Shown one piece after another: positions 2,571-19,077 of a stretch of 59,954 bases of DNA; within the stretch, counting starts at the first letter, position 1; every line of letters begins with the position of its first letter. The notes beneath the pieces are model-generated. The model worked only from the letters and a program-made list of their open reading frames with translations. It had not been told where the DNA came from and did not search any database. The position numbers and the translations under genes are program-made. The DNA lies in assembly GCA_025362395.1 (NCBI GenBank), contig JANYGK010000001.1, positions 1-59,954 of the forward strand, in the 5' to 3' direction. The stretch is from Bacteroidota bacterium. Lineage in GTDB: Bacteria > Bacteroidota > Bacteroidia > B-17B0 > Aurantibacillaceae.

Positions 2571-3236
2571 TTAAAGCAGATCTTCACTAATGTGATGCAA
2601 CACTTCATTACCTGCCTCAAACACCATTTCCTTAGTACTTACCGGGTGCCTGATAATAAGCTTTGCACCATGCAGTGCTATGGCATTAGGTTTATATACT
2701 TCTGTTGACCCGTAAAGTTCGTCGCCTAAAATCGGGCAACCGAGGCTTGCCAACTGTACTCTTATTTGATGAAATTTGCCGGTGTGCAATTGTATTTCCC
2801 ATTGTGTATATTTCCCATGAGGTTTTACGGAGTATTCTAATTTTACTTTTTCAGCATGGTCTGTTCCTTCAGATACAAGTACCCCTTTCTTTTTTTCTTT
2901 GCGGTGCCAATGTTCCAACACACCTGTTTTTGCCTGAGGCGCGTTTAAGGTTACGGCGCAATAATATTTCGATACCGTGCGTTGGGCAAATTGTTCGCTT
3001 AAGTTTTTAAGGCATTCTCTTTTTTTGATAAACAGCACTACGCCACTCACGGGCCTGTCCAAGCGATGCAAGTGCTGGGCATAAGGCAGCTTTTCACCGG
3101 TACTTTCCTTCAAATAAGTTTTTACCTGCTGTAATAAATTCGGGAAATTATTGCGGTCGGGCTCAACCATTAAACCTGCGGGCTTATTGCATACAAGCAG
3201 CGTATCGTCTTCGAATATAATGAGAGGTTGAGACAT
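2571..3236 (-). CDS. RluA/TruC-family RNA pseudouridine synthase
   Basis: Isomerises uridine to pseudouridine in rRNA or tRNA. 221 residues without an N-terminal S4 domain. The catalytic motif HRLDRPVSG (near residue 57) contains the essential Asp, and the downstream motif HQIRVQLASLGCPILGDELY is typical of the RluA group. Length fits the short TruC/RluA-like members. The exact target uridine cannot be read from the sequence. Confidence 0.93.
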   Translation of the reverse strand: MSQPLIIFEDDTLLVCNKPAGLMVEPDRNNFPNLLQQVKTYLKESTGEKLPYAQHLHRLDRPVSGVVLFIKKRECLKNLSEQFAQRTVSKYYCAVTLNAPQAKTGVLEHWHRKEKKKGVLVSEGTDHAEKVKLEYSVKPHGKYTQWEIQLHTGKFHQIRVQLASLGCPILGDELYGSTEVYKPNAIALHGAKLIIRHPVSTKEMVFEAGNEVLHHISEDLL

Positions 3237-3834: not shown

Positions 3835-4067
3835 TTGCAATAGCGTTTCGTATTTAGCAGTTCGTCCGCGGCCTGCAAGCTTGCGGGATTTGTTTTTTCC
3901 ATAAAAGAAAAAAAGTAAACTTCCTGCTTTAAATTAAAGCTCCGTTTATTATGATCAACAAGAAGGCAAAATCTGCTTATTTTAAAATGCTACAAAATAT
4001 AGCAACAGTCTGTCGTTATATGTAGTAATTTTATTAAGAGATATTTGTTAATTAAATTATTAATGCC

Positions 4068-4706
4068 ATGAATACTAAACACAACACCTTCGCAAGTGCT
4101 AAAGAGCCGCAACTGTCGTTATTTCCGGACCCTGTAAAAGAAACACCGGAATCGTTACCGGATACAGTACACCAGTACTTCTTTATTATTTCGCCGCCCG
4201 ATGCCGTTAAAAGTAAAGTTAAGTCACTGAAGCATAAATTAAACACGGCGGTTGGTTTAAGTGATCATAATTTGCATTCTGTTCCGCACATTTCATTAAT
4301 GTCATTTCATACTATGTGGCCTGTAAACGACCGTTTTATGCAAGTAGTGCAGCAATTGTTTTCAGAGATCCATTGTTTTGAAGTGAAATTGCACGGCTAC
4401 GAACATTTTGTACACGGTTCATCATCTGATACTATATATGTAAAGCTTTCCGACTCAGATAAGATCAAGCTGATGTATCAAGAGTTGCATAATTTGCTGG
4501 GCTTGAGAGTGCGTTCTTTCGTTCCGCATTTAGCTATTGCCCAAACCATACCCCGCGCTAATTTCGGGAAGAGTTTTTCCATCGTTAAAAAGCATTCTTT
4601 TGATGAAGAATTTGTATGCGAAACAGTAACGCTTTTAGAAAGAAAACTGCAACATGGTGTAGCCGGTAAATACAGGGTATTAAAAGAAATTAAATTGGCG
4701 GCTTAA
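4068..4706 (+). CDS. 2H phosphoesterase / LigT-like protein with N-terminal clamp-binding-type motif
   Basis: 212 residues of the 2'-5' RNA ligase/2H phosphoesterase superfamily. The first catalytic tetrad is present as PHISLMSF (HxS); the second reads PHLAIAQ, so the usual Thr/Ser is Ala and catalysis may be altered. The N-terminal tail (about residues 14-20) contains EPQLSLF, which matches the bacterial sliding-clamp binding pentapeptide QL(S/D)LF. Its stop codon directly abuts the stop of the convergent gene at 4707. Confidence 0.8.
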   Translation: MNTKHNTFASAKEPQLSLFPDPVKETPESLPDTVHQYFFIISPPDAVKSKVKSLKHKLNTAVGLSDHNLHSVPHISLMSFHTMWPVNDRFMQVVQQLFSEIHCFEVKLHGYEHFVHGSSSDTIYVKLSDSDKIKLMYQELHNLLGLRVRSFVPHLAIAQTIPRANFGKSFSIVKKHSFDEEFVCETVTLLERKLQHGVAGKYRVLKEIKLAA

Positions 4707-18450: not shown

Positions 18451-18661
18451 TAATGCATTAGATATAATTGCTTTGACGATCCAGATCGCAGGCACATTGA
18501 TGATGGCTTTTAACAGCCCAAAGAATTTACCGGCAGGCGCTTTTATGACTGTAAATGTTGATGTAGTTACCCCACGTAAAAGAGAAACAAAAACAAAAAT
18601 AGGATTGCTTATTTTATGCCTCGGGTTTTTCATACAATTAATTTCTTTACTTATTAAATAA
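18440..18661 (+). CDS. Small two-helix membrane protein in the restriction operon
   Basis: 73 residues from the ATG at 18440, which overlaps the end of the type IIG gene. Two hydrophobic helices (DIIALTIQIAGTLMMAF and IGLLILCLGFFIQLISLLI) separated by a basic loop. An upstream TTG at 18428 could add four residues. Its stop overlaps the next start (TAATG), indicating translational coupling. No family recognised; association with the restriction enzyme is by position only. Confidence 0.72.
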   Translation: MKINNALDIIALTIQIAGTLMMAFNSPKNLPAGAFMTVNVDVVTPRKRETKTKIGLLILCLGFFIQLISLLIK

Positions 18662-19077
18662 TGGAAGTTACCCAACAAAAAATACAGGAAGCCATTGCAA
18701 ACTCTAGCGAGTGGATTGCTTTTTTAGCTGCTAAGTCTGACAAGGATTTGGAGCGCAGGTTGGGTATTAACCGATTACAGTTTGCTGAAGCTTATAAAAA
18801 CAAACAGGAAGATGTGTGCGAATTATTGGAACTCATGCGCCGTCTTATTATGGAAGCCCGTATTTATAAAGAAGAACATAGTATAGCCGATTCACCAAAC
18901 GACATTGAATTAGCTATGGCTGAACACAAACGCGAAACCAAACACTGTGCTGAACGCCAAAAAGCATTTGAACCTCAAGCAAGAGAGAAAGAGGAAGAAC
19001 TGAAAGAAACGGATGTTTATAAAACAACTAAGTCTAAGATAAAGGAAGAGGACGGTAATCAGATGAGTTTGTTTTAG
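18661..19077 (+). CDS. Helical protein ending in a sliding-clamp-type motif, restriction operon
   Basis: 138 residues, charged and largely helical, no membrane segment. The last five residues are QMSLF, close to the clamp-binding consensus QL(S/D)LF and in the C-terminal position often used for it. The start is coupled to the preceding gene by TAATG. No enzymatic motif. Inferred, not shown: it may bring the restriction system or another partner to the replication clamp. Confidence 0.72.
   Translation: MEVTQQKIQEAIANSSEWIAFLAAKSDKDLERRLGINRLQFAEAYKNKQEDVCELLELMRRLIMEARIYKEEHSIADSPNDIELAMAEHKRETKHCAERQKAFEPQAREKEEELKETDVYKTTKSKIKEEDGNQMSLF

Follow-up and report, generated by a model that had tools for sequence, protein, structure and literature searches.

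Here, we describe a gene from a member of the Bacteroidota that encodes a 212-residue protein of the 2H fold (positions 4068..4706 on the forward strand of the window, that is, of the whole 59,954-nucleotide stretch of DNA that was analysed) and that is best read as a DNA-damage-induced, clamp-docked accessory factor of translesion synthesis (TLS) in this phylum. We put the probability of this reading at roughly 0.7, with the clamp binding, the induction and the effect on polymerases all being predicted. 2H proteins are usually assigned to RNA repair or nucleotide chemistry, and what we could not find described in the open-access literature is the combination of this known fold with this known system. 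Several lineages tie 2H proteins to mutagenic polymerases by four kinds of evidence, namely a docking motif, gene fusion, gene neighbourhood and an operator. An earlier, sequence-only reading of the same DNA had suggested a replication-coupled, possibly non-catalytic role; the conserved motif and the disordered tail described below support that proposal, with the setting moved from replication in general to the SOS response and TLS.

The window open reading frame (ORF) begins at the first ATG in frame (4068, +), and its product matches Pfam PF13563, the 2'-5' RNA ligase superfamily, at 53.2 bits against a cut-off of 27. It reaches neither the cut-off of the LigT/ThpR equivalog TIGR02258 (29.8 bits against 65.7) nor that of the YjcG equivalog NF010223 (38.5 bits against 129), and on these scores we reject its identity as an ordinary orthologue of either. 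In an AF2 model built from seven sequences (overall pLDDT 85), the core (residues 33-209) is modelled with confidence as a 2H fold (pLDDT about 92), preceded by an N-terminal tail (residues 1-32, or about 1-31; 4068..4163, +) that is predicted to be disordered, with pLDDT below 50 for residues 1-16 and 22-28, and that varies in length and sequence among homologues. The solved folds closest to the model include YjcG (2d4g, Z 18.1) and LigT (5ldo/5ldj, Z about 15), with further matches to the central domain of AKAP18/AKAP7 (Z 14.5) and to CNPase (Z 5.6). A second 2H protein of the same genome, YjcG-like and with intact motifs, is encoded by a separate gene (L127). Close to the window gene lies an RluA-type pseudouridine synthase gene (2571-3236, reverse strand) that is a conserved neighbour in L090, L092, L093 and L097, and in four genomes of the genus (L091, L092, L094 and L095) a MutS gene is found 1.4-4.4 kb from the 2H gene. 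The survey as a whole covered genomes within the class, together with plasmid and phage collections, and searches of these collections lent no support to a phage or plasmid origin: the window protein (P0001) had no match in either, the L111 protein had none among plasmids, the L123 protein had a single match to a distant cyanobacterial 2H protein, and no plasmid record covered 80% of a DinB-2H fusion query, the best listed matches being to its DinB part.

The disordered tail carries the sequence EPQLSLF at residues 13-19, where the sequence-only reading had placed a clamp-type motif, and within it the pentapeptide QLSLF (Q15-F19; 4110..4124, +), which stands outside the core rather than folded into it. 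In the available text of PMC12309361, QL[S/D]LF or QxxLF is given as the clamp-binding consensus, with the QLSLF of PolC binding Bacillus subtilis DnaN at a KD of 3.8 uM, and the QMGLF of B. subtilis DnaE, at about 78 uM, illustrating that QxxLF can also bind weakly. Conservation in orthologues, proposed earlier as a check on the motif, was borne out. A single-sequence search of 150 relatives with the window protein gave matches in 38 genomes, and all 17 top matches (E <= 2.6e-17, window included) have an N-terminal QxxLF in the form of QLSLF, QLNLF, QLGLF or QGSLF; the next by E-value are L018 without the motif, L019 with QVELF and L020 without it, after which the remaining fetched loci encode YjcG-like proteins lacking an N-terminal motif. 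This E-value ranking supplies the unbiased motif count, as alignment A1 comprises 18 of the 30 loci that the single-sequence search supplied, and later searches based on it favour motif bearers because the 12 motif-less loci (L018 and L020-L030) were left out. Among the 18 motif bearers of A1, residues Q15, L18 and F19 are invariant, whereas the tail around them has diverged. When 87 genomes of the family were searched with a profile, 17 contained the window type at E <= 3.2e-63, the next kind of protein following at 1e-20.

A wider set of 79 loci, consisting of the window, six named MAG contigs and stretches of other genomes, contains 82 2H ORFs (L120 and L152, in which no 2H ORF was called, were left out). 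The N-terminal QxxLF is found throughout the window's group (19/19), and 12 further ORFs have a QxxLF within their last seven residues. As a background, 718 unrelated proteins of these loci were scanned for Q[LIVMFG]xLF: none has it within the first 24 residues, and 2/718 have it within the last 12. One of these two, a 138-residue protein, is itself encoded in the window (18661-19074, +); it matches no Pfam family, and its sequence closes with ...GNQMSLF, a clamp-type pentapeptide at the C-terminus. At the DNA level, a genome-wide pattern for QLSLF was uninformative (106 matches against 67 in the control). The partner polymerases carry pentapeptides of the same type, QINLF in DinB, including the Pol IV of the window genome, and QGNLF in three of four UmuC proteins, and the window genome's own DnaN is located at G000:C109. 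The window protein combines the sequence features of beta-clamp-binding proteins, namely a consensus motif, an accessible segment and conservation in orthologues, and QLSLF would, on these grounds, dock it on DnaN.

The promoter region contains an SOS-type operator, the palindrome TGCTACAAAATATAGCA (3988..4004), 64 bp before the ATG, in which a CTAC-N5-RTAG dyad is recognizable; in the window's group as a whole, the dyad lies inside TGCTACAANNTRTAGCA. A second conserved element, GTAGTAATTTT (4022..4032, +), recurs in most homologues with the N-terminal motif, about 30 bp downstream of the first box; it is part of a full CTAC-N5-GTAG in L096, and probably serves either as a promoter element or as a second operator in degenerate form. 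The 17-bp box has eight exact sites in the window genome against 0.03 expected from base composition, and when up to two mismatches are allowed it gives 46 strand-hits, compared with 10 for its reversal. It precedes recA, dinB, radA, rSAM_link_UDG, a PA0069 radical-SAM gene, YifB and a DnaQ/GIY-YIG exonuclease gene (a DEDD exonuclease with a Cho-like part), with a two-mismatch version at ruvB and another whose downstream end is followed after 11 bp by the start of an XRE-type, LexA-like regulator on contig C69. A PF00717 search of the genome had returned no S24 protein, which was a miss: homology search then found this XRE/S24 regulator, which aligns at E 7e-161 with a homologue carrying HTH_3 and Peptidase_S24. 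One operator is common to the 2H gene, recA, a TLS polymerase and a LexA-like regulator in a single genome, and this shared operator places the 2H gene in the SOS regulon, with which it would be induced.

Related genomes have the box before recA, ruvB, Pol IV, UvrD, DprA and the XRE/S24 regulator. The box is present at up to two mismatches upstream of 13 of the 19 2H genes with an N-terminal motif, and before 5 of the 264 other ORFs in these loci, all five in the 2H intergenic region or operon. As for the others, L096 has the palindrome with three mismatches, L103 and L105 have the box before a 116-residue gene that precedes the 2H gene on the same strand, and L102, L106 and L107 (3/19) have none upstream of the 2H gene. 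The 116-residue family, for which there is no NCBIfam match, sits directly upstream of the 2H gene, on its strand, at L102:7280-7627, L103:8866-9213 and L105:7851-8198. The box-bearing genes of the window genome match the Bacteroidetes SOS regulon under a non-canonical LexA as described in the consulted text of PMC8565304, with recA, dinB-dnaE, ruvB, a UDG-radical SAM gene, a GIY-YIG exonuclease, a LexA-like S24 regulator and a 4-N5-4 dyad in common. The window operator is CTAC-N5-RTAG, however, rather than the published CTAA-N5-TTAG box or GGA-N5-TCC, and the same text names no 2H member, the term 'RNA ligase' having no match in the paper's main text. An exact CTAA-N5-TTAG does lie upstream of 9 of 25 2H ORFs that are TLS-linked or of the C-terminal-motif type.

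Linkage to TLS genes was found in 16 of the 79 loci, where the 2H gene adjoins, shares an operon with or is fused to DinB, UmuDC and/or DnaE, and Pfam confirmed the TLS and 2H assignments for representative loci. In six loci (L108-L113), the 2H gene is divergent from a DinB (Pol IV) gene, the two genes being some 74 bp apart in five of them and having called starts that overlap in L110, and a C-terminal motif is present in five of these six (5/7 of their 2H ORFs). The DinB gene of L109 is split into two ORFs (L109:6766-7948) and may be a pseudogene or reflect a sequencing error because of this split; its two 2H neighbours are open. Two loci (L115 and L126) have the gene order dinB-2H-dnaE, in which the 2H protein itself lacks a clamp motif. 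In four more (L116-L119), DinB and 2H form a single protein, with IMS, IMS_C and 2_5_RNA_ligase2 all above the Pfam cut-off in L116 and L117 and a weak 2H match (21.9 bits, below the cut-off of 27) in L118, in keeping with its decay. A 419-residue frame in G423 (L120) could not be confirmed as a further fusion, there being no 2H ORF called there. One or two 2H genes stand beside umuD, umuC and a PA0069-type radical-SAM gene in L121, L122, L123 and L130; three of these (L121, L122 and L130) have a tandem 2H pair with broken catalytic motifs in at least one copy. In L132, a convergent DnaE gene is an additional neighbour of the 2H gene.

A tree built without the terminal and catalytic columns, and without three short sequences (L147, L157 and L161), places the window protein in a clade of 27 rows (99/95) made up of 18 rows with the N-terminal motif, 7 DinB-divergent rows and 2 from dinB-2H-dnaE loci, so that TLS polymerases adjoin 2H genes within the window's own clade. 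The UmuDC-linked rows and the DinB fusions form a sister group (96/91). L106, a protein with the N-terminal motif, falls outside the 27-row clade, and for that reason the N-terminal motif as a character takes two steps on the tree. The window gene itself, on contig C66, has no TLS polymerase next to it; its genome keeps a dinB-dnaE pair, without an attached 2H gene, at G000:C58. Since the 2H gene stands apart with its own clamp tag and the operator of dinB-dnaE, the simplest reading is that it encodes a detached part of the same machine.

Scored against the 2H motif definition found in the text available of PMC5283653, the window protein has an intact first motif, HIS (H74-I75-S76; 4287..4295, +), and a second motif, HLA (H154-L155-A156; 4527..4535, +), in which the threonine of HxT is replaced by alanine. 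The altered second motif reported by the sequence-only reading is real, but it is not a general trait, as HLA is private to the window genome and other members lose other residues. In the passages on CNPase mutants seen in PMC4643303, His mutants lost activity and T311A, at the same motif position, had no measurable activity (Table 1), and HLA should consequently cripple the window protein, abolishing or nearly abolishing 2H catalysis; by this analogy it is probably dead or crippled as an enzyme. A complete set of four catalytic residues is found in 11 of 19 proteins with the N-terminal motif, 12 of 24 in the set that is TLS-linked or has a C-terminal motif, and 36 of the 39 remaining proteins. 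Loss is thus commoner in the linked sets (20/43 against 3/39; Fisher p 1.4e-4, ignoring relatedness), a contrast that is descriptive only because the second set was picked for its TLS linkage or C-terminal motif. A phylogenetic test with independent pairs gave no association between the clamp motif and catalytic intactness, and the tree of 79 rows has at least 11 changes of catalytic state. In the DinB fusions L118 and L119, at most one of the four residues survives, yet the fusion persists. The repeated loss of catalytic residues with retention of a docking element argues for the 2H domain being a binding module rather than an enzyme, while the intact sites in 11/19 and 12/24 proteins mean that catalysis may matter in many members.

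These intact sites are also what could be expected of a clamp-tethered end-processing enzyme that would open 2',3'-cyclic phosphates, or cut a related 2' linkage, on DNA ends left by hydrolysis at misincorporated ribonucleotides or on RNA primers at stalled forks, with residual or altered activity in the members with altered motifs. We regard this as unlikely. It draws further support from the retention of H154 in 19/19 proteins with the N-terminal motif, from closest folds that are cyclic phosphodiesterases and LigT, and from the slow turnover of CNPase T232A in crystals noted in the same part of PMC4643303, but the window protein has HLA, the counterpart of the inactive T311A, the L118 and L119 fusions persist despite their losses, and the motif-intact YjcG-like protein (L127) is already encoded separately in the window genome. 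Somewhat less probable still is a checkpoint in which the SOS-induced protein fills the pockets of DnaN so as to dislodge or restrain the replicative polymerase or Pol IV, its 2H fold being incidental; the strong consensus motif in a free tail and the SOS-type operator would suit such a competitor, whereas the conserved core domain, the fusions to DinB and the motif-less 2H protein of the DinB-2H-DnaE operon point beyond competition for the clamp. That QLSLF is fortuitous or serves something other than the clamp, in a conventional 2H enzyme of RNA processing whose damage induction is coincidental, is very improbable given the persistence of Q, L and F in a tail that diverges elsewhere, the background of 0/718, the relocation of the motif to the other terminus in DinB neighbours and the loss of catalytic residues, even though clamp binding is predicted from sequence and no TLS gene adjoins the window gene.

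In the reading that we prefer, that of a damage-induced and clamp-docked TLS accessory factor, an XRE/S24 LexA-like repressor would leave the operator after DNA damage, and the 2H protein would then be made alongside RecA and the Pol IV-DnaE pair. Its QLSLF tail, a conserved consensus motif in a disordered segment, would enter the DnaN peptide pocket at stalled forks, where the protein would assist the Y-family polymerase and its partner DnaE, with the 2H domain most likely acting as a nucleic-acid or protein binding module. Related loci would achieve the same job via a C-terminal clamp motif in genes divergent from dinB, a slot in the dinB-dnaE operon or fusion to DinB, and these alternative wirings are themselves directly visible in the sequences. 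A broader proposal, tentative and with the odds somewhat against it, is that a 2H 'pseudo-phosphoesterase' is a general subunit of Bacteroidota translesion synthesis, recruited by any available route (N-terminal motif, C-terminal motif, DinB operon, DinB fusion or UmuDC neighbour), co-regulated by the local SOS box and filling, as a binding module, the place that ImuA/ImuB-C has elsewhere; it might, for example, recognise the primer end, a 2'-OH or ribonucleotide, or DnaE as its partner.

One known relative in fold is the central domain of AKAP18/AKAP7, which has the 2H fold, is AMP-bound in PDB 2vfk and is a binding rather than a catalytic domain, although it belongs to a eukaryotic PKA anchoring protein. 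The window protein also has its fold in common with B. subtilis YjcG (2d4g), Escherichia coli LigT/ThpR and CNPase, but catalytic members keep both HxT/S motifs intact, and we know of no clamp motif or SOS/TLS linkage in these three. One of the closest known systems is the PolY-DnaE2B(-RecA) mutasome of Bacteroidetes, in which a DinB-type polymerase lies beside a DnaE-type one (PMC6511836, PMC12926913, in the text examined), as in the pair at G000:C58; that the DnaE of the window genome is DnaE2B is suggested by this context, the membership tested being that of the DnaE family. The relatives of the window gene have a 2H domain inside or fused to such a pair, whereas the examined text of these two surveys of bacterial polymerases mentions no 2H component, and neither 'RNA ligase' nor 'LigT' has a match in their main texts. 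A likeness of another sort is found in the ImuA-ImuB-DnaE2 mutasome, where ImuB, in the text available of PMC6511836 and PMC11791113, is a damage-inducible, clamp-motif-bearing accessory related to an enzyme but itself catalytically dead; it differs in being an inactive polymerase of the Y family, the window protein having a 2H fold.

A search of the open-access literature for 2H or LigT proteins with the clamp, translesion synthesis or SOS gave nothing that appeared relevant among the matches listed. If the preferred reading is true, the Bacteroidota mutasome, so far described as two polymerases plus RecA, would gain a new component, an enzyme fold would have been reused as a clamp-docked scaffold, and there would be a concrete gene for tests of damage-induced mutagenesis in the phylum. 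The operator variant CTAC-N5-GTAG (for example in L184, L181 and L229, and at 3988-4004 in the window) differs from the two main published boxes and is accompanied by an autoregulated XRE/S24 regulator, which suggests a third SOS operator variant. Other genes under the box (L183, L187, L189, L197, L205, L208 and L214) include one for a 123-residue protein without a Pfam match, and the same box also precedes genes for ORF6N-like and RhuM-family proteins and for a further protein that matches only a 'hypothetical protein' model.
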